Assembly (NCBI GenBank): GCA_947629625.1
Contig: CANRES010000007.1
Location: 1 to 32,166, forward strand
Reading direction: 5' to 3'
Source: an uncultured Clostridia bacterium
GTDB lineage: Bacteria; Bacillota; Clostridia; TANB77; CAG-508
DNA length: 32,166 bases
Shown here: positions 1-19,052 of the stretch, piece after piece
How the letters are laid out: each line of letters starts with the position of its first letter
Numbering within the stretch: position 1 is the first letter of the stretch
The notes under the pieces: model-generated
Seen by the model: only the letters and a program-made list of their open reading frames with translations
What the model was told of the DNA's origin: nothing
Databases searched by the model: none
Position numbers and translations under genes: made by a program

Positions 1-72
1 GGATTATTACCATTACATAGAGTAATTAAAAAGACACCAGCAAAAATATTAGCAAGACATGATGTAGAATAA
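1..72 (+). CDS. 3' end of a gene that starts left of the window
   Basis: An open frame enters from the left edge and codes for 23 residues, ending in ...KILARHDVE before a TAA stop. A strong terminator follows at once, which supports it as the real end of a gene. I do not recognise the protein. It does not look like the missing N-terminal part of the carboxypeptidase interrupted at 7825. It probably belongs to the same mobile element as the genes to its right, but this is inference. Confidence 0.5.
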   Translation, partial: GLLPLHRVIKKTPAKILARHDVE

Positions 73-110
73 AATAATAACCACTCGTTTCACGGGTGGT
101 TATTATTGTT
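73..110 (+). terminator. Rho-independent terminator
   Basis: A 15-bp stem (73-87 with 93-107, one G-T pair) with a 5-nt loop is followed by a T-rich tract. It ends the partial gene at the left edge. The stem is A/T-rich at its base, so it may work on both strands. Confidence 0.8.
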
Positions 111-306
111 ATATTAGTATTGAATCATAATTTATAAGTTTAAATGCAAATATTTACAAAGATTTAATTTTATGTTATTATTATATAAAATTTGAATTAA
201 TAAGGAAAAGAGATAAAAATACAATATAAAGACTTAAATGTTCCAATAGATAAATTAGAATTGCAAAAAATTGAAGTTATTGAATAATAAAAGGAGAAAA
301 AAGTTT

Positions 307-1303
307 ATGAAAAAAATAAGTTATATTATAATTACAATTATATTTATAATTTTAATATCATTAGTAGTTATAAATGTAATAAAAAAAGACGAAACAAAAG
401 AAACATTAAGTAATGAAAATTTATATAATGATATTGAAAATACTGTTATAAGTGAGAAAACTTTAAATATTGAAAAAAATAGTGCTATATCAAAATATAT
501 TCCTAATGATATTACTGAAATCTCAATAGTAAAGTTTTTTTCATATAATCCTAATGCTACACCATATACAATAACTGATATTGAGAAAATAAAAAAATTT
601 ATTGAATTATTTACTGGTTTTACATGGACAGAAATAGATAAACAAAGTTACTCAATAATAGAGCATAAAATAATAATAACAGGTTCTACAACAACTAATT
701 TTAATATGATGCGGATTAGCAGGAGAAAATGGAATGTATGGAATTATTCAAGTAGATGATAATGGTACTATTAAAACATATCAAACTTCTAAAACAAATT
801 ACGAAGAATTATTATCTTTTGATACTGAAAAATATTATTTACATGATAGTGATTTAGAGATTCCAAAACAAGAGATATGTTATGAAGTACAAAATAAAGT
901 ACTATCGGAATTAGACGAAAATAATAAAGCAATTCTTCAAAAACAAATTCGAGACGAACATATATCAATGGAACGTCAAATATTAGAAGGAATACAAGCA
1001 TTAAAAGATTCTAATAACCCAGTTTGGGAAAATAATTATTTATTAACATTTAATTTACAAAGAACAAAAGAATTATATAATATTGTTCAAAATGAACAAG
1101 TAAAAGAAGATTTAAAGCAAACTATAAATTTGTTTGAAAAAGCAATAAATGAACATAGTATAAAAAAACTATTGGAAGTACATAAAATAATACACGATTA
1201 TGATTATTGGATAATTAATTATCCACCAATTGAATTTGAATATGCTCCACCAGATTGGGAAGGTGCAAATACATATTTTGGTACAGTTTCAATTTTAAAA
1301 TAA
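307..1303 (+). pseudogene. Membrane-anchored extracytoplasmic protein of unknown function, frameshifted
   Basis: Two overlapping frames form one gene. The first starts at ATG 307 behind an AAGGAG site with a hydrophobic anchor (IIITIIFIILISLVVI, about residues 6-22). The frame breaks at 712: the sequence reads ATG-C-GGATTAGC. Without that C, MMGLAGENGMYGIIQ reads straight into the second frame, giving a 331-residue protein that ends at 1303. It would be a single-pass or lipoprotein-like protein with a helical, charged outer domain. I do not recognise the family. It is preceded by an AT-rich leader and followed by a strong terminator, so it is probably monocistronic cargo of the element. The break may be a sequence error rather than true decay (see findings). 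Confidence 0.6.
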
Positions 1304-1309
1304 GGTTTA

Positions 1310-1345
1310 AACAATGATATAAAAAATTATATCATTGTTTTTTTA
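1310..1345 (+). terminator. Rho-independent terminator
   Basis: A perfect 13-bp stem (1310-1322 with 1327-1339), a 4-nt loop and a run of T residues directly follow the 307-1303 gene. Confidence 0.9.
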
Positions 1346-1505
1346 TTTCTATTTTAAGTTTCATTATTCCATCCATAATATATGATTGTATAAACTTAAT
1401 TTTGTTACATTAAATAATCCATTAAATAGAGCCACAGTAAATTTGCACTATAATGTAAAATATGATAAAATAATGGCAAAGTTAAAAAACGGAGGAAAAT
1501 ATTTA

Positions 1506-1979
1506 ATGAAAAAATGGATAATATACTGTATATATATTTGTTTGTTTTTTTTAATGATTTATTTAGAATTTTATATATCTTTTAATCAAACTATTTATTA
1601 TCTTAATTATTATAATTTTTTTGGTAAATATAAATCCGAATTAATAAATGAAACCATTTTGGAAAATGGACTAATAGATAAAAATCAAAAAATTGAAGAT
1701 ATTAAACAAATAAGCATTAATTATACACAAGGATATGGTTATTTATTAACTTATAAATATACAAATAGAGATATAGGTTACTCTCATTGGACCGAAAATC
1801 CTAATATATATATAGATTATATAATATCTAATAATGGTTATAATGGACCTTTAATATATGATAAATATTATATTGTAATTAAATATATTATAATAGTTAT
1901 GATAATTATTCCATTTATAAAATTATTTATATATTTATTACAAAGAATAAAAAATTTAATTCAAAAAAGAGAATCCTAA
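1506..1979 (+). CDS. Small two-pass membrane protein, hypothetical
   Basis: The best start is ATG 1506, behind GGAGG at 1491-1495; upstream extension to a TTG has no ribosome site. The product of 157 residues has one hydrophobic segment near the N-terminus (WIIYCIYICLFFLMIYLEF) and another near the C-terminus (YIIIVMIIIPFIKLFIYLL). The Tyr/Asn-rich loop of about 80 residues between them probably lies outside the cell. The end is basic (KNLIQKRES). No family is recognised. It lies between two terminators, as a separate cargo unit of the serine-recombinase element. Confidence 0.65.
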   Translation: MKKWIIYCIYICLFFLMIYLEFYISFNQTIYYLNYYNFFGKYKSELINETILENGLIDKNQKIEDIKQISINYTQGYGYLLTYKYTNRDIGYSHWTENPNIYIDYIISNNGYNGPLIYDKYYIVIKYIIIVMIIIPFIKLFIYLLQRIKNLIQKRES

Positions 1980-1995
1980 ATGGATTCTCTAAATT
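1968..1995 (+). terminator. Terminator hairpin after the two-pass membrane protein
   Basis: An inverted repeat AGAGAATCC / GGATTCTCT overlaps the stop codon of the 1506 gene and is followed by an A/T-rich stretch. There is no clean T run, so termination may be weak. Confidence 0.5.
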
Positions 1996-2052
1996 ATTTA
2001 TATAGGACATATAATAATCGTATTTATAACAAAAAATATAATATATGATATT

Positions 2053-3063
2053 TTAACTATTCTTCTTTATCCATTTTTGAAATTCCTCAGCAGAAATTTT
2101 ATTATTTTTATATTTTGCTAATTTATTTTTTCCTATTTTACTATACTTTTCAAAATCTTCAATGTATTTTTGAATATCAGGGTATCTTGACTTCATCATT
2201 GCCTTTCGATTATATACTTGGTAATATGAGAAAATAATAGGATCTTCATTTTTACTATTTTCAAATACATTTTTTCTACCAATTTCCTTACAAGTTTTTT
2301 TAGTTTCACCAGGTGCAATATTAGAACAATAGTTAGTTGCTTTATTTGTAGAAATGAAGTATTTTTTACAATTCTTACATACTTTTAAATACACATCTTG
2401 CTTTAAAATACTGCAAATTGATTTATATAAAATAGCAGAAATATTGTAAGGTAGTATTAAATCAAATTCTGTTATTTTACTATTTTTTTGTGAAAGAAAT
2501 TCATATATTTGCTTTTCAGATTCACCAGGATAAGAAGAAAAAAGATTAACTGAATAATATGCTGCTTTATTCTCATTCAATAAAGTTAAGTTAGGTGATA
2601 TTCTTCTTAAAACATATAATCTCTCTATTGCTTTATAATTATTTGCAATTTTATTAGGGTTTAAATAACAATAATCAAGAATAATATCTGTTTGGTTTTG
2701 TAACTTATTAAATAAATTTTTATTTTTATTTAATAAATCCGTTATAAAATCTTCAAATTTTTTCTGTTCACAATTTGATTCTTTAAATAATTTTAACATT
2801 TTATTATAATCTATTAAAGATAATGAGTATTTACTAAAAAAATAAAGAAAATCCTCATATTTATTAAAATCAGTATTTAAAAAATCAGCTAAAAATGAGC
2901 CAATTGGTTGTATGAAAATTTTATATTCTGAATTCATTTCATATTGCATACTTTTTTTATTAAATTTTATGGGATAATTTATTATAATTTCGCAATTATT
3001 TTTATCATTTATAGCTAATCCTAATCCACATATAATATCTTGAATATATTTATTCTCATCCAT
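2053..3063 (-). CDS. Zinc-ribbon protein of unknown function, DUF6076-like
   Basis: The product has 336 residues. It is a helical protein with a Cys cluster in the second half: CKNCKKYFI, then YCSN, then TCKEIGRK, spaced like a treble-clef or zinc-ribbon site. This layout resembles the DUF6076 proteins often seen in conjugative and mobilizable elements of Clostridia, but that match is from memory and was not tested. The start has a good AGGAG site. A 10-bp inverted repeat in the leader (3084-3117) could act as operator or mRNA hairpin. The gene faces against the genes on both sides. Confidence 0.6.
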   Translation of the reverse strand: MDENKYIQDIICGLGLAINDKNNCEIIINYPIKFNKKSMQYEMNSEYKIFIQPIGSFLADFLNTDFNKYEDFLYFFSKYSLSLIDYNKMLKLFKESNCEQKKFEDFITDLLNKNKNLFNKLQNQTDIILDYCYLNPNKIANNYKAIERLYVLRRISPNLTLLNENKAAYYSVNLFSSYPGESEKQIYEFLSQKNSKITEFDLILPYNISAILYKSICSILKQDVYLKVCKNCKKYFISTNKATNYCSNIAPGETKKTCKEIGRKNVFENSKNEDPIIFSYYQVYNRKAMMKSRYPDIQKYIEDFEKYSKIGKNKLAKYKNNKISAEEFQKWIKKNS

Positions 3064-3083
3064 TTTTAACTCCTTTTTGTTAA

Positions 3084-3117
3084 GAACACAATTAAAAAAT
3101 AACTATAAATTGTGTTC
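3084..3117 (-). promoter_or_regulatory. Inverted repeat in the leader of the zinc-ribbon gene
   Basis: GAACACAATT at 3084-3093 is repeated inverted at 3108-3117, just upstream of the ribosome site of the 3063 gene. A related AAGAAC...GTTCTT pair lies at about 3180-3210. These may be operator half-sites or an mRNA hairpin. Confidence 0.4.
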
Positions 3118-3220
3118 ATTTCATTTTTTCCTAATACTTATTGACTTTATTAATATATGAAATTATAATAGCAATAGTTAAGAACGAATATGAAATTCTT
3201 TCTGTTCTTGACAATTATAA

Positions 3221-3278
3221 AACATATAGTATAAGTACATTTCTTCCTTTTTTTTATATATAAATTATACTATATGTT
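3221..3278. repeat. 14-bp perfect inverted repeat in the divergent intergenic region
   Basis: AACATATAGTATAA at 3221-3234 is matched by its inverse at 3265-3278, with a 30-bp T-rich centre. It lies between the divergent genes at 3063 (minus) and 3385 (plus). It fits a regulator operator or a recombinase-binding site; nothing in the sequence decides between these. The rest of 3064-3384 is AT-rich with no gene I can support. Confidence 0.5.
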
Positions 3279-3384
3279 AATAAAAAAATCAATATAGGCA
3301 AATTCTAGATATGTCTATATGATACTACTATGTCAAAAAATGTGTAAACACTTTTTGAACCAAATATAAAATATGGAGGTAAGT

Positions 3385-3801
3385 ATGGAAAAAATTTTAA
3401 CAATAAAAGATTTATATTTTAATCACAAAAAGAGTTTAACTGAAATTTCAGAAATAGTAAAAACATCCATAAGTTATATCTCAAAAGTTTTAAGAAAAGA
3501 TATAAGATACACAGAAGAAAAAGAAAAACGAAAACAAGAGAATTTAACAGAACGAAAAAAAATACAAAAAGAAATAATTTATAATAAACGTAGAGAAATA
3601 AAATGTACAGATAATATTGATTTAAAAAGTCAGCATGAACAAGCAGTTAAAGAATTATCAAAACATTCTGTATTAGGAAAAGAAGCATTAAGAAAATGGT
3701 GTAGTAGTGCATATAAATATAATCCAAAAAAGAAAAGATATGAATTTGATACAGAAAATTTATTAAAACCTGCTGATTTTCCATTATATATAGGTATATA
3801 A
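3385..3801 (+). CDS. HTH DNA-binding protein of the element
   Basis: ATG 3385 is placed correctly behind GGAGGT; the earlier ATG 3373 overlaps that ribosome site. The product has 138 residues. Residues 1-45 (LTIKDLYFNHKKSLTEISEIV, then SISYISKVLRKD) read as a resolvase or sigma-like helix-turn-helix. A long basic helical linker rich in Lys, Glu and Arg follows, then a C-terminal region with a conserved-looking WCSSAYKYNPKKKRYEF. It is probably a regulator of the element's transfer or excision functions; the target is unknown. It starts the cluster of small genes that leads into the recombinases. Confidence 0.6.
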   Translation: MEKILTIKDLYFNHKKSLTEISEIVKTSISYISKVLRKDIRYTEEKEKRKQENLTERKKIQKEIIYNKRREIKCTDNIDLKSQHEQAVKELSKHSVLGKEALRKWCSSAYKYNPKKKRYEFDTENLLKPADFPLYIGI

Positions 3802-3884
3802 ATTTTATAAGAATAAAAAAATATAACTGTACATTTATGTAGAGAAAATGAAATAAGTTTTATAGAAATTTAGAAGGTGATAAA

Positions 3885-3980
3885 ATGTTGTTATTTATAT
3901 TAGGAATGATGGTAGGAGGAACAATTGGAATAATAGTTCACTGTATGTTAATTATTGCCAAAGAATCAGATAAAAATTAA
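3885..3980 (+). CDS. 31-residue single-pass membrane peptide, DUF3789-like
   Basis: The sequence reads AAGGTGATAAAATG, a good ribosome site and start. The peptide begins MLLFILGMMVGGTIGIIVH and ends with the polar AKESDKN. The glycine-rich hydrophobic segment after MLLFILG is typical of the very small DUF3789 proteins found in phages and conjugative elements, by recollection. No function is known for the family. A terminator follows directly. Confidence 0.6.
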   Translation: MLLFILGMMVGGTIGIIVHCMLIIAKESDKN

Positions 3981-3995
3981 AGTATATAATATTTA

Positions 3996-4026
3996 TAAAA
4001 AGTCAGAAAAAATCTGGCTTTTTTAT
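3996..4026 (+). terminator. Rho-independent terminator
   Basis: AAGTCAGA and TCTGGCTT form a stem (one G-T pair) around an A-rich loop, followed by six T residues. It separates the 31-residue peptide gene from the 4040 gene. Confidence 0.8.
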
Positions 4027-4039
4027 TATGGAGGAAAAA

Positions 4040-4312
4040 ATGAATAAAAATGAATGTAAAAAATATATAAGAAAATCTTATGAAAAACTTATAAATAAAT
4101 CATTAACAATGAATCCAGAAAATTTAGCAAATGAAATGGAAAAAGTAATGAAAAATGAAAGTAGAATTTATATTGCTTATGCAAAACTTGCAATGCACCA
4201 TTTGAATAAAAGTGCTACTGATATTACTGCTAAACAATTATTAGCACAAATAGATGTAATATCAAAAATATATGATCAAACAGATATATTACTTAAAGCA
4301 GAAAACATCTAA
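4040..4312 (+). CDS. Small helical protein, hypothetical
   Basis: ATG 4040 is preferred because GGAGG at 4030-4034 sits at the right distance, while ATG 4028 overlaps it. The 90-residue product is wholly polar and predicted helical (KKYIRKSYEKLINKSLTMNP..., then MHHLNKSATDITAKQLLAQID). It has no membrane segment or cysteine motif. It belongs to the string of small genes before the serine recombinases; such proteins could be recombination directionality factors, but nothing in the sequence proves it. Confidence 0.6.
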   Translation: MNKNECKKYIRKSYEKLINKSLTMNPENLANEMEKVMKNESRIYIAYAKLAMHHLNKSATDITAKQLLAQIDVISKIYDQTDILLKAENI

Positions 4313-4389
4313 ATTTTTTTCTCAACTTATATTTATATAATAATATTTTTTTGCTTTCGTTCATAAAATTAAGCAAGAGGTGAAGAAAT

Positions 4390-4533
4390 ATGCAAGAAAG
4401 CATAACTACTCAAGAAAAGAAAAATAAAGTAAAAGAAGATTTTAATATTATTGTAACTTATGCTAATAATGGACAAAGTTTTCAGACAATTGCTGAAAAC
4501 ATAATAATAAGAAAAATGAATGAAAATAAATAA
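4390..4533 (+). CDS. 47-residue accessory protein upstream of the recombinases
   Basis: A GAGGTGAAGAAAT ribosome site precedes ATG 4390. The product is MQESITTQEKKNKVKEDFNI..., followed by VTYANNGQSFQTIAENI and a short basic end. Small proteins of this shape lie directly before large serine recombinases in several clostridial transposons (compare TnpW of Tn4451-type elements); the resemblance is loose. The 3' flanks of this gene and of the 4040 gene share TTTTTTCTCAACTT (near 4315 and 4538), so the two units may have arisen by local duplication. Confidence 0.55.
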   Translation: MQESITTQEKKNKVKEDFNIIVTYANNGQSFQTIAENIIIRKMNENK

Positions 4534-4610
4534 AATTTTTTCTCAACTTTAAATATAAAATATAATGTGGTAAAAAGTAAGCATAGATAATTACAAAGAA
4601 GGGAGGAAAT

Positions 4611-6266
4611 TTGGAAGCAAAAGACTTTGATAATAAAAATTATATTGCCGCTTTATATATGAGATTAAGTAAAGATGATGGCGATAAAGAAGAAAGCGAA
4701 AGTATAAAAAATCAAAGGAAAATATTAAAAGCATTTGTTAAAGAAAATAATTATAAAATTTATGATGAATATATAGATGATGGATATAGTGGAACAAATT
4801 TTAATAGACCTGATTTTAAAAGAATGATTAAAGATATAAAATCTGGAAAAGTTAATATGGTAATCACAAAAAACCTAGCAAGATTAGGTAGAGATTATAT
4901 TGAAGCAGGAAGATATATTGAATCCTTTTTTCCAGAAAACGAAATAAGATATATCGCAATATTGGATGATGTTGATACATATTTAGATAAGAACTGTGAT
5001 ACTGTTGCATTTAAAAATATTATGAATGATTTTTATGCTAAGGAAACATCTAAAAATATAAAGAAAACCAAAAATAGAAAAAAACAAGAAGGTTTTTATT
5101 ATATAAGTTATGCTCCATTTGGTTATAAAAAAATAAATAAAGCAGGAAATCTAAAAATAGATGAGGTAGCAGCAGATACGGTAAGAAGAATATTTAAAGA
5201 ATTTATTGCTGGTAAAGGAACATATCAAATTGCTCAAATTTTAAACAAAGAAAATGTAACTACTCCTGGATTATATATGAATATGACAAGTGTCGTAAAT
5301 AATATAACAAACACAACTAATATATGGAGGCATACTACTATAAAAAGAATTCTTACTAATCCAATATACATAGGTACAGTAGTACAAAATAAAAGAAAAA
5401 AAATTAGTTATAAAAGTAAAAAGATGATTACATTACCAGAAGATCAACATACAATAACTACGGACCATCATACTCCTATTATAGATATTGACACATGGAA
5501 TACTGTACAATCTATTTTTAAAAATCGTGTAGGAGAAAAAATAAAAGAAGATGATCCATTATTGAAATCATTATTACATTGCTATCATTGTCATAATAAA
5601 TTACAAATTGTTAAGAAAACTGATAAATATAAGGATAATATAAAAACTAGAAAATATGTTATATGTAATACAGCATCAAGAGTTGTAACAAATAAAATAT
5701 GTAATAATAAAAAATATATAAATTATGAAGTATTAGAAAAAAAAGTATTAGATAAAATATCTAGTGTTTTTGAAGAATATATTACATCAAATGCTTTTAA
5801 TAATGAAGAATTATTAGAAAACTTAATTAAATCTCAAAGTAATAAAGGAAAATTAATAGAAAAATTAGAACAAATTAATAATCAACTAAACAGTGTAAAT
5901 AAAAAAATATCTACACTATATAATGATAAGTTAAATGGACTAATTGAAGAACAAGATTATAGTAATTTTTCAGATAATTTAGTAAAAGAAAGACATAAAT
6001 TAGAAGAATTGAAGGAAATTACAGAAGAAGAAATTAATGAATTTGAAAAAAAATTTGATGGCAAACAAATAGAGAATAAATTAGAAAAGGTAATAAAAAG
6101 AATCATTGATGGAAGAGAATTAAAAAAAGAAGATTTACAACAATTAGTAAATATGATTGAAATAGATGAAAACAAAAATGTATTAATCCATTTTAATTTT
6201 TATGAATTAAATTGTATAGGAGGGCATTTTAATTATGATGATACTCAAAAAGCAGTTAATTCGTAA
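4611..6266 (+). CDS. Large serine recombinase, first of a tandem pair
   Basis: This is a site-specific DNA integrase/excisionase of the large serine family, 551 residues. It starts with TTG 4611, four bases after GGGAGG; no ATG is better placed. The resolvase domain has the catalytic serine in YMRLSKDDGD (about S20), then GYSGTNFNRPDFKRMI and the ITKNLARLGRDY segment. The recombinase domain follows (FGYKKINKAGNLKID, GTYQIAQILNKENV). A zinc ribbon has paired cysteines in CYHCHNK and later single ones. A long coiled coil covers about residues 410-500. The stop overlaps the next recombinase start by 32 bp, so the two are translationally coupled. It probably catalyses integration and excision of this element. 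Confidence 0.92.
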   Translation: MEAKDFDNKNYIAALYMRLSKDDGDKEESESIKNQRKILKAFVKENNYKIYDEYIDDGYSGTNFNRPDFKRMIKDIKSGKVNMVITKNLARLGRDYIEAGRYIESFFPENEIRYIAILDDVDTYLDKNCDTVAFKNIMNDFYAKETSKNIKKTKNRKKQEGFYYISYAPFGYKKINKAGNLKIDEVAADTVRRIFKEFIAGKGTYQIAQILNKENVTTPGLYMNMTSVVNNITNTTNIWRHTTIKRILTNPIYIGTVVQNKRKKISYKSKKMITLPEDQHTITTDHHTPIIDIDTWNTVQSIFKNRVGEKIKEDDPLLKSLLHCYHCHNKLQIVKKTDKYKDNIKTRKYVICNTASRVVTNKICNNKKYINYEVLEKKVLDKISSVFEEYITSNAFNNEELLENLIKSQSNKGKLIEKLEQINNQLNSVNKKISTLYNDKLNGLIEEQDYSNFSDNLVKERHKLEELKEITEEEINEFEKKFDGKQIENKLEKVIKRIIDGRELKKEDLQQLVNMIEIDENKNVLIHFNFYELNCIGGHFNYDDTQKAVNS

Positions 6267-7812
6267 TGTAGCAATTTATTTAAGACTTAGTAAAGATGAT
6301 GGTGATACAGAAGAAAGTGAAAGTATTTCAAATCAAAGAGCAATTATTTTGAACTATTTAAAAGAAAATTTCAATTATGAAAATTATTATGAATATGTGG
6401 ATGATGGCTTTTCAGGTGCTACGTTTAATAGACCAGGATTTAAAAGAATGATTGCTGATTTAAAAACAAAGAAAATAGACTTAGTAATAACAAAAAATTT
6501 AGCAAGGTTTGCAAGAAATTACATTGAAGCAGGTGAATATATAGAAAAACTATTTCCAGATAACAATATAAGATATATTGCAATATTAGATGGTGTTGAT
6601 AATTTTGAAGATAAAGTTGCAAACGAATTTGCACCGATAAAAGCAGTGTTTAATGAATTATTTTGTAAAGAAACATCAAAGAGTATAAAAAAGAGTAAAA
6701 GAAAAAAGATGTCTGAGGGGATATATAGTTGTAATGTAGCACCATTTGGTTATAAAAAAGATAATGATAATCCAGGAAAATTAATAATTGATGAATATGC
6801 TAGTAAGATAGTTGAAAGAATTTTTGAATTAACATTAAAAGGAAAAACAGCAAAACAAATAGCTGATTTATTCAATAAAGAAAAAATAATCACACCAGCA
6901 GAATATTTAAAAATTAAAGGATTAGAAAATAGAACAAAGAAAATTTGGACAAGAAGTATGATTTCAAGAATCTTAGAAAATCCTGTATATACAGGAAAAT
7001 GTTTAAGAGGAAAAACACAAAATATTAGTTATAAGAGTAAAAAAAGAATTAACATACGAAGAAATGAACAAATAATAACTGAAAATACTCATAAAGCAAT
7101 AATACCAGGTGAAATATATGATAAGATTCATAATAATAACAAATTTGGAAAAATAAAAGGTGAATCAAAAGGTATAGATGTTAAATTTGCACCATATATG
7201 TTTTGTGGTGAATGTAAAAATAAAATGTCAAAAAGAAGATCAAGAAAATTTATAAATATTCATTGTCCATCAAGAAATGAAACTAATTATTTATGTTCAA
7301 ATAAAAAACTATATAAATATGAAGAACTTGAACAATTAATAATAGATAGTATAAGAAAAGAATTCGATATATATTTAAAAAAGAATAACTTAAATCTTAG
7401 TTTAATGAAAAAATATAATATGATGAAAGTAAATGAAATAGATAGTAAATTAAAAGAATTTAACAAAGAACTAGGAATAATAAGATTTAAAATCTCTAAA
7501 TTATATAATGATAGATTACAAGAAAGTATTTCAGAAGATGATTACAAAAAAATGTACAATGCCTTAACTAAAAGGAGAAAAGAATTAAGTGAAGATATTG
7601 AAATACTTGAAAATGAAAAAAATAATATCAATAATGATAGTGAAAATATATCGAAGATAAAAGAAGTTAAAAATGTGTTAAAGAACCTAGATAAAGAATT
7701 CTTAACTGACGAAGATATAGGAGAAATAATTGAAAAAATATACCTATATGATAATCATATTCAGATATTTTATAAATTTGAAAAAATGCCATCAAAAATA
7801 ATTTCTTGTTAA
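6235..7812 (+). CDS. Large serine recombinase, second of a tandem pair
   Basis: A second family member, 525 residues, starts at ATG 6235 behind AGGAGGG. The catalytic serine is in YLRLSKDDGD (about S19), followed by GFSGATFNRPGFKRMI and LVITKNLARFARNYIEAGE. The recombinase domain contains FGYKKDNDNPGK; the zinc ribbon is CGECKNKM... with later cysteines in HCPS and LCSN. A coiled coil fills about residues 390-480. It resembles the first recombinase clearly but not closely, so this is an old duplication or a paired system like CcrA/CcrB of SCCmec rather than a recent copy. Its stop lies within about 15 bp of the junction with the interrupted carboxypeptidase gene, the usual place for an integrase gene at an element end. 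Confidence 0.92.
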   Translation: MMILKKQLIRNVAIYLRLSKDDGDTEESESISNQRAIILNYLKENFNYENYYEYVDDGFSGATFNRPGFKRMIADLKTKKIDLVITKNLARFARNYIEAGEYIEKLFPDNNIRYIAILDGVDNFEDKVANEFAPIKAVFNELFCKETSKSIKKSKRKKMSEGIYSCNVAPFGYKKDNDNPGKLIIDEYASKIVERIFELTLKGKTAKQIADLFNKEKIITPAEYLKIKGLENRTKKIWTRSMISRILENPVYTGKCLRGKTQNISYKSKKRINIRRNEQIITENTHKAIIPGEIYDKIHNNNKFGKIKGESKGIDVKFAPYMFCGECKNKMSKRRSRKFINIHCPSRNETNYLCSNKKLYKYEELEQLIIDSIRKEFDIYLKKNNLNLSLMKKYNMMKVNEIDSKLKEFNKELGIIRFKISKLYNDRLQESISEDDYKKMYNALTKRRKELSEDIEILENEKNNINNDSENISKIKEVKNVLKNLDKEFLTDEDIGEIIEKIYLYDNHIQIFYKFEKMPSKIISC

Positions 7813-7842
7813 TTATGAACGCTCAATGATTGTACTGTTGCA
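7813..7842. other. Probable right attachment site of the serine-recombinase element
   Basis: Between the recombinase stop (7812) and the carboxypeptidase coding sequence, homology to the penicillin-binding-protein family begins at about 7825 with N-D-C-T-V-A-M-A-E. In frame upstream there is a stop at 7816-7818, so the gene cannot be read across the junction. The crossover is therefore about 7815-7830. The exact core cannot be fixed without the left junction. Confidence 0.6.
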
Positions 7843-8613
7843 ATGGCAGAATATTTAGCAGGATCCGAAGAAGCATTTGTAGATTTAATGAATAAACGTG
7901 CAAAAGAATTAGGAATGAATGATACAACATTTAAAAACTGTCATGGTATAGATGAAGACGGTCATGTAACATCACCTTATGATATTAGTATTATGGCAAG
8001 AGAACTTTTAAAAAATCATCCTAACATAACAAAATATACAACAATATGGATGGATTCATTAAGAGATGGAAAATCAGAATTAGTAAATACAAATAAATTA
8101 ATAAGAAACTATAAAGGTGCAACAGGTTTAAAAACAGGTTCAACATCACTTGCATTATATAATTTAGCAGCAAGTGCAACAAGAGATAATTTATCATTAA
8201 TAGCAGTAATAATGAAAGCACCAACAACTAAAATTCGTTTTTCAGAAGCTCAAAAACTTTTAGACTATGGATTTGCAAATTATTCATATAAACAATTTGG
8301 AAAAGAAGGAGAAATAGTACAAAATATTGCAGTTGAAAAAGGAGTGGAACCAACTGTAAATGCAATATATGAAAAAGAAGCATCTGTTTTAATAAAGAAA
8401 GGTCAAGAAAAAAATGTTATACAAAATATAAAAATTAATGAAAATATTTCAGCACCAATAGTAAAAGGAGATAAAGTAGGAGAGGCAACATTTGAATTAG
8501 ATGGAAAAATAATTGCAACAGTAAATTTAGTAGCAGATAATGACGTAAATAAGGTAAATATTTGGAATATCACTACAAATTTATATAAAAAATGGTTTAA
8601 TTTAATTAGATAA
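7825..8613 (+). pseudogene. dacF: D-alanyl-D-alanine carboxypeptidase, 3' part, 5' end cut off by the element
   Basis: Serine-type carboxypeptidases of the PBP5/DacF family trim the terminal D-Ala of peptidoglycan stem peptides at the cell surface. Here the frame opens in the second active-site motif (S-x-N, of which ND is seen) and runs through MAEYLAGSEEAFVDLMN, the HGIDEDGHVTSPYD segment, KTGST (the third motif), and the beta-rich C-terminal domain, ending in a short amphipathic tail (NLYKKWFNLIR) that would bind the membrane. The signal peptide, the S-x-x-K motif with the catalytic serine, and about the first 100 or more residues are missing. ATG 7843 is only a possible restart and lacks a ribosome site. 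The 5' part should lie beyond the left end of the element. The gene symbol is a family guess; dacA/dacB-type naming is equally possible. Confidence 0.88.
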
Positions 8614-12997: not shown

Positions 12998-13071
12998 GCA
13001 GGTGTAGTTCAATGGTAGAACCCCAGCCTTCCAAGCTGGATACGTGGGTTCGATTCCCACTACCTGCTCCA
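12998..13071 (+). tRNA. tRNA-Gly (anticodon TCC)
   Basis: A full cloverleaf: acceptor GCAGGTG/TACCTGC, anticodon stem CCAGC/GCTGG with loop CTTCCAA, GGTTCGATTCC in the T arm, and an encoded CCA end. The gene is enclosed by complementary 10-nt flanks (12983-12992 and 13079-13088) that would pair in the precursor. Confidence 0.97.
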
Positions 13072-13107
13072 TAAAAAACTCCTGACAGAAAAAATTTTAG
13101 CAAACAT

Positions 13108-13184
13108 GCGCCCTTAGCTCAGTTGGTCAGAGCAACCGGCTCATAACCGGTGGGTCCAAGGTTCGAATCCTTGAGGGCGCACCA
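13108..13184 (+). tRNA. tRNA-Met type (anticodon CAT)
   Basis: Acceptor GCGCCCT/AGGGCGC, anticodon stem ACCGG/CCGGT with loop CTCATAA, T loop GTTCGAATC, and encoded CCA. The anticodon stem lacks the three G-C pairs typical of initiators, so this is elongator Met, or Ile if the C is modified to lysidine. Confidence 0.95.
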
Positions 13185-13206
13185 TTTTTTTATAAAAAAA
13201 ATATTT

Positions 13207-13292
13207 GGGCAGATGGCCGAGTGGCTAAAGGCGGCAGACTGTAAATCTGTTCTCATTTGAGTACGATGGTTCGAATCCATCTCTGCCCACCA
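13207..13292 (+). tRNA. tRNA-Tyr (anticodon GTA), integration site of the island
   Basis: A class II tRNA with a long variable arm: acceptor GGGCAGA/TCTGCCC, anticodon loop CTGTAAA, encoded CCA. Its 3' 31 bases are repeated at 25153-25183, at the far end of the island. The tRNA stays complete after integration. Confidence 0.97.
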
Positions 13293-13409
13293 TAATTTTA
13301 TTAGAAATATCAAGGGTTTCAGAGTTTACAGTTTCAAAAATCCTTAAATATTTCTAAAAAATCTTTAAATGAGTAATTATCTTATTTTATTTAGATAATT
13401 GCTTTTTTT
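13262..13409. repeat. Left attachment repeat (attL) of the tRNA-Tyr island
   Basis: A 148-bp direct repeat of 25153-25300 with three mismatches (13328, 13331, 13334). It covers the tRNA 3' end and the tRNA operon terminator. It ends two bases inside the stop codon of the integrase gene. Confidence 0.92.
13372..13409 (+). terminator. tRNA operon terminator (within attL)
   Basis: AGTAATTATCT pairs with AGATAATTGCT around a short A/T loop, then seven T residues. The same hairpin is present in the right repeat (about 25263-25300). It also lies just after the integrase stop on the other strand. Confidence 0.8.
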
Positions 13410-14691
13410 ATTGATTTATTACTTTTTTAGTTGGAAAATGAATAATTTTGCCATTGTTTAAGTTTTCATCTTCTTTACTAGTAAAAGTAATATTTTCATA
13501 TTGTTTATCAACTTCATTGGTTGCTTTTCTCTTATGTTCGTTATCTGTATGAAAATATGTAGTAATTATTTGACTCCATCCTGCAAGTTCTTTAATGCTT
13601 TCTTGGTCTGTATTCGTTTCTTGTGCTAAAAATGTAAGATATTCGTGTCTTAAAGAATAAGGCCCTATATCGCTTATTTGCAATAATTTTGATAAAGACT
13701 TATACATTTTTCTTAAAGACTGTTCATAAAACAGAGTTCCTACTTTTGTATAAAAGATGAAATCTGATGGATTTGGTGTAATACCTTTATCAATATATTG
13801 TTGATATTTCATTTTAAATATATTAGATAAAAATCTTCCTAATGGCAATTCTCTCACTGCTTGGGGTGTTTTTCCACCATCTTCAACTACAATTTTTTCG
13901 CCAATTCTCTTACCGTTTTCATCGTATATATTATTTTTAACTACTGTATGTCTACTAGCCCAAAAGCTATCATTTTCAAAGTCTATATCTTGCCATTGTA
14001 GGCCACCGACTTCTTCTGGCCTTAAACCTCTGGCGTCCATAATTGCAATAGGAGCATAATATAAATTAAAAGGTTTATCTTTTATTCTATTGCTAAAATA
14101 ATCTTCTACAATTTTTTGTTCAATTTGATTACGAACTTCACGAGTTCCTTTTACTACTTTTGGCATATCTAATAATTCCAAACTTATATGTGGCATTTTA
14201 TTATCAGCCATAGCATATTTTAATGCTTGTTTTAGTGGTGCAAATACTTCCTTTACTGTTTTACCTTTAAGTGTCTGTAATACACCATTTTTTTCAATTT
14301 TTTTTGACTTTACCTTATTTATTGCTTTTTGTATTTTGTCTATTGTTAAATCTTTTAATTTTACAGAACCAATTAAAGGGTATATATGATTTTGAAAATA
14401 GGAATAATAACTATCTTTGGTGTTTCCCTTTAAATTAGTTTTTACATCTTTAAGCCAATGTACACACCAGCTTTTTACTGTATAACTTTTAGATTTTATT
14501 TGTTTTCCTTGTTTACAAATATCAGCATATTTGTTCTGTAAAGTCTTTCTTGATTCTTCTTCTGTTTTTCCAGTTGAAGATAACTGTTTTCTTGTTCCAT
14601 TTGGCATATCAAAATATGCTCTACAAGTAACTGTTCCACTTTTGTTATATCTATAAGTGTAACCTTTATTTTTCCCTTTTTTATGAGCCAT
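13408..14691 (-). CDS. int: Tyrosine recombinase, integrase of the tRNA-Tyr island
   Basis: The 427-residue integrase inserts and excises the island at tRNA-Tyr. It has an N-terminal arm-binding domain (KGYTYRYNKSGTVTCRAYFDM), a SAM-like core-binding domain (SWCVHWLKDVKTNLKGNT) and a catalytic domain. Catalytic residues seen: the first Arg in DARGLRPEEVGGLQW (about R220), SLRHEY for the second box, with Tyr in place of the first His and Trp instead of the third (LAGWS), and the nucleophile in TTYFHTD (about Y378). These substitutions are common in Tn916-like integrases. The start follows AAAGGAGG, and a TTGACA-17-TAAACT promoter lies upstream. No excisionase gene is visible. Confidence 0.95.
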   Translation of the reverse strand: MAHKKGKNKGYTYRYNKSGTVTCRAYFDMPNGTRKQLSSTGKTEEESRKTLQNKYADICKQGKQIKSKSYTVKSWCVHWLKDVKTNLKGNTKDSYYSYFQNHIYPLIGSVKLKDLTIDKIQKAINKVKSKKIEKNGVLQTLKGKTVKEVFAPLKQALKYAMADNKMPHISLELLDMPKVVKGTREVRNQIEQKIVEDYFSNRIKDKPFNLYYAPIAIMDARGLRPEEVGGLQWQDIDFENDSFWASRHTVVKNNIYDENGKRIGEKIVVEDGGKTPQAVRELPLGRFLSNIFKMKYQQYIDKGITPNPSDFIFYTKVGTLFYEQSLRKMYKSLSKLLQISDIGPYSLRHEYLTFLAQETNTDQESIKELAGWSQIITTYFHTDNEHKRKATNEVDKQYENITFTSKEDENLNNGKIIHFPTKKVINQ

Positions 14692-14758
14692 TTGGCGTAA
14701 CCTCCTTTATTTTAAATTTGGGAAAATATAAAGTAATTAATCTTTATAATTAGTTTAG

Positions 14759-14781
14759 CATTACTAATATATATTGTCAAT
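14759..14781 (-). promoter_or_regulatory. Candidate integrase promoter
   Basis: On the minus strand, TTGACA (14776-14781), 17 bp, TAAACT. The -10 is imperfect. It lies about 70 bp before the integrase start and next to the 16-bp tandem repeats. Confidence 0.5.
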
Positions 14782-14808
14782 TACTTATATATGTTTCCTA
14801 GTAATTCT

Positions 14809-14856
14809 AATCTAAATCTAATCTAATCTAAATCTAATCTAATCTAAATCTAATCT
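14809..14856. repeat. Three tandem copies of a 16-bp repeat, iteron-like
   Basis: AATCTAAATCTAATCT occurs three times without mismatch, directly between the replication gene and the integrase gene. It runs into the last codons and stop of the replication gene. It could bind the replication protein or integrase, or be a product of slippage. Confidence 0.85.
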
Positions 14857-16028
14857 AATTTTAAACAATATTCATCAAAAGTATGATGTTTTAATTCTTC
14901 GTGTTCTCCGTCATATATTGTAAAATCCCTGCATACTTCTTTTGTTGTAAAATTAGGTAAAAATGCAATGTCTATATCTTCATCAAATGTTAAGGGATTA
15001 ATTCCTATACTTCTTAGAAGTTTTATATGGTTTTCAAAAGTATCATCCGAATATTTATATTCTTCTTTTGCTTTTGTAAAGCCTTTTTTATTAATGTCTA
15101 CAACTAAGTTGGATAACTTTTCCGCTTCTTTTTCATTTAATCTTCTATCACTGTTAATTGCTAGTAAAGCATAATCCAAACGATAAAAAGGTTCTGCATA
15201 GAATATAGGTTCTACATAACGTCTAAAACACTCATCTATAATTTTTTCATTGAAGTAGTTATCTAGTGTTTTATCAATTATAAATGTATTGCGTGTATTA
15301 TAATATAAACGTTTATTTTTAAGCCTTAATTCTATTCTGAAAACATCTTCATATTGTGCTATTTCTATGTCTATTTGTTGTGTTTTCTTTTTGTTTCTTA
15401 ATTTTGACTTACGTTCTTCATATTTGTCATACACAATCACTTCTATATAAGCATTTCGTGGTTTAAATTTTATGCCATTGCCTTTTTTTAGTTCTTCTTT
15501 AATAACACCATTATAAGAATCTCTACATATTCTTAAAATACATCTAAGAGCTCTACTTTCTTGTAATGGGTTATTCTCAAACACAAAATCGTGTTTAAAG
15601 TCTATTCTATTAAGTTTACCTTTTTCTAGAAAATCTATGTTAATTCCTATGCTTTCCAACAATTCTAACGTATTTTGATATATTTCATCATCAGTCTTGT
15701 CTTTTATTGCATTATGGCTTATAAATATAAAAACATAGTCATCTCTATACTTACGATGACAATAATTTAAGCTATAATCACCATATTTTCCTGAATATGG
15801 ATATTTTTTCTTAAAAAATATATCATAACCTTTATAATAGAAATGTAAAGCATTTTTACCTTTAAAACAAATTTTTGTTTTAATTTTAGGTTTTCTTAAC
15901 GTTTTACATTTCCATTTTTTTCGAACACGATAAACAACACCATTTTTGAAATCATTAAACATTTCTTCTTTATTTGATGTCTTAACTTTAAATTGCATTG
16001 TTAAAGTGTCAACATAATCTGCTACCAT
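14850..16028 (-). CDS. rep: Phage/plasmid replication initiator, gene II/X family
   Basis: The 392-residue product matches the layout of filamentous-phage gpII-type rolling-circle initiators, which nick the double-stranded origin. Seen in order: KLNRIDFKHDFVFEN (compare SRIDATFS in M13 gpII), AYIEVIVYDKYEER, VFRIELRLKNKRLYY (compare RFEARIETRYL) and a C-terminal FTKAKEEYKYSDDTFENHI. The alignment is by eye. The start follows AGGAGGTGAAACA. It has a long leader from a promoter at 16455-16483, crossed by an antisense RNA and a terminator, which suggests copy control. It lies upstream of int on the same strand. Confidence 0.75.
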   Translation of the reverse strand: MVADYVDTLTMQFKVKTSNKEEMFNDFKNGVVYRVRKKWKCKTLRKPKIKTKICFKGKNALHFYYKGYDIFFKKKYPYSGKYGDYSLNYCHRKYRDDYVFIFISHNAIKDKTDDEIYQNTLELLESIGINIDFLEKGKLNRIDFKHDFVFENNPLQESRALRCILRICRDSYNGVIKEELKKGNGIKFKPRNAYIEVIVYDKYEERKSKLRNKKKTQQIDIEIAQYEDVFRIELRLKNKRLYYNTRNTFIIDKTLDNYFNEKIIDECFRRYVEPIFYAEPFYRLDYALLAINSDRRLNEKEAEKLSNLVVDINKKGFTKAKEEYKYSDDTFENHIKLLRSIGINPLTFDEDIDIAFLPNFTTKEVCRDFTIYDGEHEELKHHTFDEYCLKLD

Positions 16029-16258
16029 TGTTTCACCTCCTATTCTAAAATAAATTATAAATTTTTCATTATCACCCCCATAGTATTGATTTATTACAAA
16101 TTATAGTTTTAGCATTGCCATTGTAGTAAAATAATACAATGTAAGTTAGCAAGGCAAACGCAATAAAACTTTTTTCGGTAATCTATCCTATACCTATACT
16201 TATATGTAAATATTTTTTTAAAGGGTGGAAAATTTAAAAATTTTAGAAAAAAAGATGC

Positions 16259-16292
16259 AAAAATAGAGCATAGATAAATACACTATGCTCTA
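16259..16292 (-). terminator. Terminator/attenuator in the rep leader
   Basis: On the minus strand a perfect 10-bp stem (16283-16292 with 16264-16273) with a 9-nt loop is followed by TTTTTGC and later a second T run. It sits about 155 nt inside the rep leader, well before the rep start, so it would end rep transcription early unless prevented from folding. Confidence 0.75.
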
Positions 16293-16334
16293 AACTCTAT
16301 AATTATAATATCAAACATATTTCTACAAAAAATA

Positions 16335-16363
16335 TTGACATTTTATTTTTTATATGTTATAAT
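16335..16363 (+). promoter_or_regulatory. Promoter of the antisense RNA
   Basis: A consensus promoter, TTGACA (16335-16340), 17 bp, TATAAT (16358-16363), faces against the rep promoter. Confidence 0.8.
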
Positions 16364-16369
16364 ATTATT

Positions 16370-16441
16370 TAGAAAACATATAGAAGTGTGCATCGCATAT
16401 TTCTAAAATTTTAAGAAGTAGTTGGTGTCTACTTCTTTTTT
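16370..16441 (+). ncRNA. Antisense RNA against the rep leader (ctRNA-like)
   Basis: The predicted transcript of about 71 nt runs from the promoter at 16335-16363 to a terminator (stem 16414-16421 with 16429-16436, then seven T residues). It has no plausible reading frame and is fully complementary to the first part of the rep mRNA leader, whose start is predicted near 16448. The terminator loop TTGGTGT holds a YUNR U-turn motif, common in plasmid copy-control RNAs. The role is inferred from this arrangement. Confidence 0.65.
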
Positions 16442-16454
16442 CAAACCTATAAAT

Positions 16455-16483
16455 ATTATATCAAATTTATGCTTGTTTGTCAA
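16455..16483 (-). promoter_or_regulatory. rep promoter
   Basis: On the minus strand, TTGACA (16478-16483), 17 bp, TATAAT (16455-16460), giving a leader of about 420 nt before rep. The -35 region and its upstream flank are shared with the methyltransferase promoter at 17654-17696. Confidence 0.8.
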
Positions 16484-16562
16484 GTTAGGTGGAAATCTTA
16501 CTCTCACAATACATACAAGCATTATTTTGCTTTATATAAGAGTGTACCACCCCAAAAGCACT

Positions 16563-16590
16563 AAAAAGCCTCTATTTTCGAGGCTTTCTA
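16563..16590 (-). terminator. Terminator downstream of the methyltransferase gene
   Basis: AAAGCCTC and GAGGCTTT form a perfect hairpin; on the minus strand it ends in five T residues. The stretch 16590-16750 beyond it holds nothing else that I can identify. Confidence 0.75.
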
Positions 16591-16750
16591 ACAAATTATC
16601 TAAAAAATATTATATAAAAATCATTTATAAACATTGATATATCAGCATTTTAATTTGACACAATTTTAGAAACATACTATGGACTAGGAGTTAACTAGCA
16701 ACGCACAACATTTAATTTTCTTTTCTACTCAAAAGGCAGAATTAGGGGGG

Positions 16751-17511
16751 CTATATTTCTTTTATTCTTTCTACTGCTACGCCATAATATCTTTCATCCA
16801 CTTCACATCCAATAAATTTACGACCAGTTTTTAAACAAGCTATTCCGTGTGCTACCACTCCCCATAAAACAATCCAAAACTATGTCATTTTTATTACTGC
16901 TATTTTCAACTAACTCTTTCATAAGGTTAATTGGTTTCTGTGTAGGGTGAAATTTGTGTTTTACATTATTTATTTGAAAAAAGTTAGAAGTTCCGCAGTT
17001 ATTGATTAGTTTTGCTCCACCGCTTCCTAAATAACAATATAAACTCACATTGTCCGCATATAGTAACCATTTACAACTTTATTATCTTTTGCCCAAACGA
17101 GAACATTTTGTAGCTTAAAACCAACTTTTTCTGTTTCGGTTATAATTTTACTTAGATTACTCCAATTACTAAATAAATAACAATGACTTTTTTCTTTTAA
17201 AATTCTATATACTTCTCCAATATATTCTGTAATATTTATATCATTATATTCAAAAATTTTGCCGATTTTTTATATTATTCTTGTTTTGTTCAGTATTTTC
17301 AAAGTAATTAAACATTCCTCCCATATATTTTTTCCCGTTCTTTCTTTTTTCCACCACCTGTATGTGATATGCGATAAGGAATATCAGAGCAAAATAAATC
17401 AATGCTCTCATCTTTTATATTTTTCAATAATTCTCTACAATCACAATTAAATAGCATATAATTGCTATTTGAACAATTTGGAGTTATACCTCCTGCTAAA
17501 AAAATATCCAT
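16751..17511 (-). pseudogene. DNA adenine/cytosine-N4 methyltransferase with five frameshifts
   Basis: The family transfers a methyl group from S-adenosylmethionine to an amino group of A or C. The frame opens at ATG 17511 behind AAAAGGAGA. The catalytic motif is SDIPY (DPPY class) in DLFCSDIPYRISHTGGG; later come KFHPTQKPINLMK and the cofactor loop VLDCFMGSGST. The frame is broken five times, at plus-strand positions 17337, 17264, 17056, 17022 and 16847. Each break is one extra C before GG on the coding strand. Removing them gives 756 bases, a 251-residue protein of normal length with MGGMFNYFENTEQN, GQCEFILLFRKGGAK and an end at VERIKEI. No restriction endonuclease gene is adjacent, so it would be an orphan methyltransferase. 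Confidence 0.85.
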
Positions 17512-17653
17512 CTTAGAAATCTCCTTTTATTGAAATTTTTTCTAAAATCTCAATAAGAGTTGCAATTTCTAAAATGGTGCAACACTTATTTATTGTAAGA
17601 ATATATAAATTATTTTATGTTTAATCTAATGCGTAAATATTCCCTACATATAT

Positions 17654-17696
17654 ATTATACCATACAAAACATACGTTTGTCAAGTTAGGTAGAAAT
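17654..17696 (-). promoter_or_regulatory. Methyltransferase promoter with the shared upstream box
   Basis: On the minus strand, TTGACA (17678-17683), 18 bp, TATAAT (17654-17659). The -35 and flank GTCAAGTTAGGT recur at the rep promoter; 22 bp match with one difference (17675-17696 against 16475-16496). A leader of about 140 bases precedes the gene, with a GTTGC...GCAAC inverted repeat. Confidence 0.65.
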
Positions 17697-17766
17697 AAAT
17701 TATAAAATCCTCTTTACGCCTCATTTTTAATGTAAAATAAAAAATGAAAAAAGTTCATAAAAACTA

Positions 17767-17817
17767 TTGACAAAACAGGTATCACGTAGTATAATAAATA
17801 TAGTAAACAGGTATCAC
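17767..17817 (+). promoter_or_regulatory. Promoter with two 13-bp operator repeats
   Basis: TTGACA (17767-17772), 17 bp, TATAAT (17790-17795). AAACAGGTATCAC fills most of the spacer (17773-17785) and recurs exactly at 17805-17817, 32 bp on, about three helix turns. A protein bound to both would block the polymerase. The obvious candidate is the AbrB-like product of the gene driven by this promoter. Confidence 0.75.
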
Positions 17818-17877
17818 ATTTATATAAATTTAATAACTTGTTTTTACTAATATAAAATATTTTGGAGGTGATAAATT

Positions 17878-18045
17878 ATGGCGCGATTGACAGAAGTTAT
17901 GGATTATAGAAACAACGGTGTGTTTGTAAAAGGTTATCGAATAGCCCTGCGTAAAAAAGGAATTGAAACAACAGGATTTACAAAAGAATCAGATTTAAAG
18001 ATTACCTATAAACAAGGTAAAATCATTATTGAAGAAAATAAATAA
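17878..18045 (+). CDS. Small AbrB/SymE-like DNA-binding protein
   Basis: ATG 17878 follows TTGGAGGTGATAAATT, an excellent ribosome site. The 55-residue product contains FVKGYRIALRKKGIETTGF and ends with LKITYKQGKIIIEENK, the beta-strand-loop-beta pattern of AbrB/MazE-type swapped-hairpin domains and of SymE. Such proteins are transition regulators, antitoxins or toxins. It has its own promoter with a duplicated operator, which suits autorepression. No partner toxin gene is next to it: the following gene is much larger and has a long structured gap before it. The family assignment is by pattern only. Confidence 0.6.
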   Translation: MARLTEVMDYRNNGVFVKGYRIALRKKGIETTGFTKESDLKITYKQGKIIIEENK

Positions 18046-18109
18046 CTAAAAAGAACATATAAACTCTTAGAAAACTTGGCGGTTATTCAAAGTTTATATG
18101 CTCCACCCC

Positions 18110-18170
18110 TTTACAAAATAAAGGTTATAAATATAATATCACAAAACCTCTATTTTGTAAAGCAAAACAA
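18110..18170. repeat. Long imperfect hairpin in the 18046-18235 gap
   Basis: CTTTACAAAATA and its inverse TATTTTGTAAAG enclose an inner AAGGTT/AACCTC pair, giving a long stem. A CATATAAACT/AGTTTATATG pair lies just upstream. These could end transcription of the AbrB-like gene or fold in the leader of the next gene. Confidence 0.5.
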
Positions 18171-18235
18171 AGTATTTTAGCAAATTAAAAACGCTAAAAT
18201 TTTAAAAATAATTTATAATATATGGAGGTTTTATT

Positions 18236-18772
18236 ATGTTAGAAGAAATCAAACAAAAATGTAAAATTGTTACAAATGAAGAAAAACAAGGCGAAGAACT
18301 TTATTTTGAAAACAAACCTGATTTAAAAGTTATAAAAGAATTAAAGAGCAGTGGCTACAAGTGGCACAATACAAAAAAATGTTGGTATAGAAAATTAAAT
18401 TATACTGAAAATAAAAAACAAGAACACCAAAACTATTTAGGAATAAAAATTGGCGATATATTCCGTTATTCGTGGGGATATGAGCAAACAAATGTGAATT
18501 ATTTTCAAGTAGTAGAATTAAAAGGAAAAAAAAGTGTGCTTATAAAAGAAATTTCATACGAAATAGCAGAAACAACAGGAATTGACAGTTACAAAGTAAG
18601 ACCTTGTAAAGATGTATTTTTGAAAGATAGTCAATTTATTAAAGACAATGAAATTGGAGCAGTAAAACAAGTTAAAGGCTTAAAAAATGGTACAATATAC
18701 ATAAACATTGAAGATTTTGGCTTTTGTAGATTATGGGATAATAAAGATGATTTAATGACTTGCTATTATTAA
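18236..18772 (+). CDS. Mobile-element protein of unknown function
   Basis: The product has 178 residues and a good GGAGG site. The first third (ENKPDLKVIKELKSSGYKWH, then KKCWYRK) is a small domain repeatedly seen in polyvalent proteins of phages and conjugative elements. The second part has SWGYEQTNVNYFQVVELKGKK, a motif I know from phage-encoded proteins of unknown role, and ends with DFGFCRLWDNKDD. There is no signal peptide or membrane segment. It probably binds nucleic acid or a host protein in the cytoplasm, but I cannot assign a function. A terminator follows. Confidence 0.65.
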   Translation: MLEEIKQKCKIVTNEEKQGEELYFENKPDLKVIKELKSSGYKWHNTKKCWYRKLNYTENKKQEHQNYLGIKIGDIFRYSWGYEQTNVNYFQVVELKGKKSVLIKEISYEIAETTGIDSYKVRPCKDVFLKDSQFIKDNEIGAVKQVKGLKNGTIYINIEDFGFCRLWDNKDDLMTCYY

Positions 18773-18776
18773 AATT

Positions 18777-18810
18777 TAAGGGAGAGTATTTCTCCCCTTA
18801 CTTTCTAAAA
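18777..18810 (+). terminator. Terminator hairpin
   Basis: GGGAGA and TCTCCC pair across a short loop after the 18236 gene. The T run is interrupted, so the strength is uncertain. Confidence 0.55.
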
Positions 18811-18889
18811 ATTAAAAAATGAGAAATCTACTCATTATCTATATAATTATAATATAAGAATTGCGGTAATTTCTCAAAAAATAAAAAAA

Positions 18890-19030
18890 ACAAATAATTG
18901 AAAATACTATTTAAAAAAGTATACTTTTATAAACAATTAAAAATACATAAAAAACTTGTTTAAAAAAGTGGTTAAAATACTTTATAAATATTTAAAAAAT
19001 CAACACCACTTTTTTAAACACAAATAATTG
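18890..19030. repeat. Repeat-rich region before the resolvase gene, possible res site
   Basis: ACAAATAATTG is repeated directly at 18890-18900 and 19020-19030. Between them is a perfect 15-bp inverted repeat, GTTTAAAAAAGTGGT (18958-18972), matched at 19005-19019. Resolvases usually act at a site of 100-150 bp directly upstream of their gene, which fits. The subsite layout could not be verified. Confidence 0.55.
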
Positions 19031-19052
19031 TGAAATGGAGATGATTTATAAA

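Follow-up and report, generated by a model that had tools for sequence, protein, structure and literature searches.

Two elements of Bacillus subtilis, skin in sigK and SPbeta in spsM, carry recombinases and split a gene that precise excision can restore; excision of SPbeta takes place in the mother cell and depends on SprA and SprB (PMC4191935). In streptococci, integrative and conjugative elements (ICEs) that bear serine integrases in triplets target the interior of mutT, traG and hsdM, with repeats of 2-8 bp, and these integrases are reported all to lie in the same orientation relative to their target (PMC4701971). Here we analyzed a stretch of 32,166 nucleotides (the window) from an uncultured Clostridia bacterium, in which an element with two tandem large serine recombinases interrupts a D,D-carboxypeptidase gene. 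This gene is one we take to be the dacF of its family. As in the streptococcal ICEs, tandem serine integrases are combined with insertion inside a gene and a short repeat, but the dacF elements carry a pair rather than a triplet, target dacF, and are found in both orientations. Unlike skin and SPbeta, they bring conjugation cargo, tandem recombinases and repeated horizontal insertion in many genera, and timed excision is here an unlikely alternative. These comparisons place the dacF elements closest in kind to the triplet-integrase ICEs, with a restoration of the gene that on paper resembles that of SPbeta. The reading we favor on sequence grounds, with a probability of roughly 0.75, is that this is a horizontally mobile integrative element that inserts in dacF at a GA dinucleotide, and that its precise excision would restore the enzyme.

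The divided dacF gene and its crossover dinucleotide

The window is the entire contig C7 of the source genome (G000), which comprises 1.26 Mb in 68 contigs and is an estimated ~98% complete. The features on which the argument turns are as follows.

1 to 7827, no strand assigned: right-hand part of the element; the contig starts inside the element; the left-hand part, contig C12, lies beyond the window and has the left attachment site (attL) at its end
4611 to 6266, + strand: large serine recombinase 1, 551 amino acids (aa; PF07508, PF00239, PF13408)
6235 to 7812, + strand: large serine recombinase 2, 525 aa (PF00239, PF07508, PF13408), overlapping recombinase 1
7816 to 7843, + strand: right attachment site (attR), the element arm TGAACGCTC followed by the dacF 3' flank, with the crossover dinucleotide GA at 7828-7829
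7828 to 8613, + strand: dacF 3' half, with the K-T-G motif and PBP5_C, without a start or S-x-x-K (PF00768, PF07943)

Enzymes of this type are recognized by the active-site motifs S-x-x-K, S-x-N and K-T-G. Homology to dacF begins in the window at the Asn codon 7825-7827, 12 bases past the recombinase 2 stop codon, and 7819-8610 covers Peptidase_S11 positions 105-239 of 239, plus PBP5_C. A Peptidase_S11 profile search of the whole genome returned three matches: this 3' half, an intact paralogue on contig C39, and a 5' half at the end of C12. The last covers Peptidase_S11 positions 6-109 of 239, has a hydrophobic, signal-peptide-like start, carries S-V-T-K (S-x-x-K), and stops precisely at S-A-N-D at the contig end, where its frame closes as ...VVSAND-stop. 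The original prediction, made from the window alone, that a serine-recombinase element splits the gene at S-x-N is thereby borne out, and the S-x-x-K half that it expected beyond the left end of the element has been found there. The C39 gene was considered as a rejoined copy and rejected, as it is a diverged paralogue with 33% identity to the 5' half.

The 3' half is 98% identical to the intact gene of a genome of the same genus (G022), in which the uninterrupted site TCTGCAAATGATTGTACTG lies within a 417-aa open frame. The position of S-x-N was taken from an alignment between the intact protein of G022 and a D,D-carboxypeptidase of solved structure, in which 'sand' falls over 'sgnd'. Joining the C12 and C7 flanks restores the frame found in intact alleles of same-genus genomes, so the predicted restoration by precise excision holds on paper. 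Measured against G022, the two halves carry 23 changes that are synonymous and 4 that are non-synonymous (dN/dS 0.043), a low divergence that fits either a recent insertion or continued use.

The extent of attR and the crossover point were set by comparison with attL on C12 and the intact G022 site. In gene sense, attL places GA between GTATCTGCAAAT and CTAGAGTGTTCAATAATG, and attR places it between GTTAATTATGAACGCTCAAT and TTGTACTGTTGC. Taken together, the attL junction AAT-GA-CTAGAGTGTTCA and the attR junction TGAACGCTCAAT-GA-TTG give a dyad attP, TGAACGCTCAAT-GA-CTAGAGTGTTCA, of which GA is the centre. The bases common to host and element are AATGA in G000, ATGATTG in G037 and GACTG in G143, G117 and G272, and their overlap is GA. 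Serine integrases depend on a central dinucleotide, and the short core in a dyad attP that characterizes large serine recombinases is found here, narrowed to GA by the junction comparison. This dinucleotide opens the Asp codon that follows S-x-N and, because all Asp codons begin GA, it is retained in every synonymous version of the motif. The position of the break is not due to chance, since other elements in relatives split dacF at the same two bases; the suggestion that conserved active-site codons serve as the target is upheld. Both junctions were read in 17 elements, and joining the flanks by script rejoined 16 of them in frame to S-A-N-D, the exception being G355, which has a frameshift in its 3' half; restoration by precise excision holds for these 16 on paper, by flank joining.

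In the mechanism we propose, the tandem recombinase pair would catalyse insertion into dacF, the integrated state would leave two useless halves, and precise excision would restore the Asp codon and with it the enzyme. Excision may occur and may be tied to transfer, and loss of dacF would be tolerated because another S11 enzyme is present. The S-x-N/Asp codons of dacF are a chromosomal target that numerous elements use within one family of uncultured gut Clostridia. They supply attP/attB pairs ready for use, whose centre is a codon position immune to synonymous change, and element control over a sporulation-linked cell-wall gene becomes testable.

Spread, horizontal movement and orientation of the dacF elements

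Relatives of recombinase 1 (E <= 1e-150) were sought in 390 family genomes from 39 genera, and occur in 17 genomes and 10 genera. Of these 17, 15 have a dacF interrupted at GA; both halves were read in 13 (G000, G205, G293, G312, G280, G283, G355, G272, G037, G117, G143, G078 and G102) and one half in G130 and G385. The contigs of G283 and G102 break before the recombinases reach the dacF half, and their link to the split was made by arms and strand. Of the other two, G279 has its element at the 3' end of asnB (L227; asparagine synthase, named by eye) and an uninterrupted dacF, and G380 was placed in neither group. A further genome, G040, has a truncated recombinase 1, and its dacF is split too. 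As anticipated, intact genes are present in relatives: besides G022, 27 of the 29 family loci read around the site (L008-L036) are uninterrupted, the two split ones being those of G037 and G078. No relative with the same break and no element appeared among the loci read, bar two uninterrupted alleles (G192, L075; G402:C3, L298) that are frameshifted within a few bases of the insertion site, on its upstream side; these frameshifts may be scars or errors of assembly.

A scan of GTDB species genomes, from which 78 loci were kept, extended this catalogue to drafts of uncultured gut Clostridia and Bacilli. More distant recombinase pairs (L229 and L230, ~40% identity) also interrupt dacF and have their crossover at this same GA, and two distant clades therefore share the target. 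Sister pairs with 54-55% identity to recombinase 1 and the same DUF6076 neighbour (L225:9719-11452; L227:9734 onward) are not in dacF but abut the 3' end of an apparent asparagine synthase gene, which suggests that the target has switched. In G035 (L176, L177), an intact dacF coexists with the 3' half of a split one, and the two share 93% identity over 788 bases. The possibility that a single genome contains both the integrated and the empty state was considered and rejected, as no clean same-strain empty site was present; the intact allele of G385 is only 72% identical to the split one, and that of G035 93%. Keyword searches of the literature turned up no paper pairing a serine recombinase or ICE insertion with a D-alanyl-D-alanine carboxypeptidase/dacF target, and we make no firmer statement of novelty.

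The nucleotide identity of recombinase 1 between hosts far exceeds that of dacF: 98.9% versus 81.6% between G117 and G272, and 88.8% versus 71.5% between G000 and G205, which belong to different genera. The insertions are therefore repeated and horizontal. A single vertically inherited insertion was rejected for G117, G143 and G272, in which recombinase 1 is 96-99% identical, dacF is 79-82% identical, and each dacF is closest to intact relatives.

The elements are found in both orientations. The recombinases face the 3' half in G000, G312, G280, G037, G040, G143, G117, G272, G401, G399, G402, L226 and G400, and the 5' half in G205, G293, G398, G078, G355, G102, G130, G385 and L221. When all of C12 and the window were scanned, the arm motif GAACNCTC occurred only at attL, at attR, and at one inverted inner site 220 bp inside attL. 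In G205, whose recombinases face the 5' half, recombinase 2 is followed by a complete dyad, TTGAACACTCTAATCATAGAGTGTTCAA, located 222 bp inside attL, and the inter-site segments of G000 and G205 align only as reverse complements (z 22.8 vs 1.3). A site X therefore lies beside recombinase 2, with a site Y ~220 bp on and inverted. Integration via X yields one orientation and integration via Y the other in this two-site model, and two inverted attP sites ~220 bp apart account for either-way insertion in the best-preserved elements. The inner site scored above all 100 shuffles in G000, G205, G355 and G401, from a scan of 15 elements that omitted those with a missing or too short left end. An inner second site in clade II elements was also considered and set aside, its orientation being ambiguous (G037 versus G355).

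Recombinases, neighbouring genes and cargo

Both recombinases possess Resolvase catalytic (PF00239), Recombinase (PF07508) and Zn-ribbon (PF13408) domains, all above cut-off, an architecture shared with TnpX of Tn4451, the Ccr proteins of SCC, and XisF. The nearest solved chain to recombinase 2 is TnpX, and the best NCBIfam models for recombinase 1 are CcrB and XisF. Scores fall far below the NCBIfam cut-offs (for CcrA/CcrB, at best 114 and 93 bits against 900), so the recombinases are none of the Ccr/XisF equivalogs. Among relatives, recombinase 2 is frameshifted near residue 90 in G130 (L074) and G102 (L071) and near residue 460 in G143 (L069) and G117 (L070), with recombinase 1 open in all four. 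Three further genes precede the pair in the window.

2053 to 3063, - strand: DUF6076 protein (PF19553, E 9.5e-15)
3373 to 3801, + strand: 142-aa protein kept with the recombinase module; resembles a helix-turn-helix protein by eye and matched no family
4028 to 4312, + strand: 94-aa protein kept with the recombinase module

DUF6076 homologues adjoin the recombinases in G102, G130, G293, G312, G283, G380 and G279 as well.

The element in G000 spans at least 35.9 kb and is of conjugative-element size. Its C12 part encodes a VirB4-like ATPase (PF19044/PF12846), pilin-like proteins of a type IV secretion system, and a coupling protein (PF02534) whose gene is split into two frames; C12 thus holds the VirB4-type ATPase and coupling protein by which an ICE is recognized. 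An M23 peptidase, a sortase, an ERF recombinase and a Gp3-like protein are also encoded there. Near the sortase gene, a protein of 1,875 aa containing 15 SpaA stretches (C12, L004:4560-10184, - strand) is a possible element-borne surface protein. Cargo is quite different between elements. With both halves on one contig, elements measure ~7 kb (G078, G205, G400), ~8 kb (G272), ~11 kb (G117), ~12.5 kb (G143), ~13 kb (G398), ~36 kb (G399) and ~43 kb (G401). By eye, the G117 element (L070/L110) seems to carry two DNA methylases, a restriction enzyme and an ATPase.

Gp3 of phiC31 is reported to act as a recombination directionality factor (RDF; PMC5814800). The Gp3-like gene inside the G000 element, whose RDF role is predicted from sequence, is the sole match in that genome. 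Of 14 genomes searched, 12 bear the element, G022 is without one, and in G051 none was found; matches occurred in five (G000, G051, G272, G293 and G401) and not in G022. The G272 match lies on a different contig from its element, and one of three matches in G401 lies between the dacF halves.

Weighing the alternatives

Several observations count against a mobile element that leaves dacF precisely. Its two ends in G000 lie on separate contigs (C12 and C7), which we link because the halves and arms match and because both ends share a contig in relatives. The relaxase family PF03432 had no match in the genome; other relaxase families were not searched, and part of the element may be unassembled. 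The Gp3-like gene was not found in eight of the 12 searched genomes that bear the element (G205, G143, G117, G078, G398, G399, G400 and G355). The second attP is significant in only 4 of the 15 elements scanned, is borderline in G078 (4 of 100 shuffles), and was not found in the remaining 10.

An alternative, also raised by the original prediction, is a developmental switch in which the element is excised on cue in the sporulating mother cell to rebuild dacF, like skin in sigK and SPbeta in spsM. Spo0A and SpoIVA are present in the genome, the host is probably a spore former, and in G022 only a few genes separate dacF from the sporulation gene ytfJ on its upstream side. Upstream regions were scanned with the consensus patterns of sporulation sigma factors. 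Sites resembling those of sigma-E, with at most two mismatches, precede 11 of 57 dacF genes versus 7 of 180 controls (one-sided Fisher p 0.0005, with sequences that are not independent and five sigma models tried), a modest excess of mother-cell-like sites; no enrichment of forespore (sigma-F, sigma-G) sites was found upstream of dacF. In C. difficile, two homologues of DacF are on record as needed for sporulation (PMC8417463). The dN/dS of 0.043 between the split gene and intact G022 would suit such a switch, but a value this low is also compatible with recent insertion. Moreover, every upstream region of recombinase 1 that was read has at least three mismatches to a sigma-E-like site, and that of the RDF-like gene has four. 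The insertions are horizontal and repeated with varied cargo rather than a single conserved element, recombinase frames are broken in several elements, and no recognisable directionality factor was found in the small elements. This part of the prediction has not fared well, and we regard such a switch as unlikely. More doubtful still is a family-wide version, in which mobile elements settled on a sporulation gene of spore-forming gut Clostridia, leave in the mother cell to rebuild it, and use paired inverted attP sites that allow either orientation.

Least probable is an immobile remnant with dacF simply lost in these lineages, for although the frames of recombinase 2 (G130, G102, G143, G117), recombinase 1 (G283, G385, G279) and the dacF 3' half (G205, G283, G355) are broken in draft genomes, some possibly through assembly errors, in G000 the frames of the two recombinases, of the RDF-like gene and of each half of dacF are all open, the halves having the predominantly synonymous differences from G022 given above.

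Apart from the dacF element, the window has what looks like a second integrated element at 12998-19664, where three tRNA genes (Gly, Met and Tyr) precede genes for a tyrosine integrase (13408-14691) and a resolvase (19035-19664), with a fragment of an N6/N4 methylase (16818-17048) between these two.

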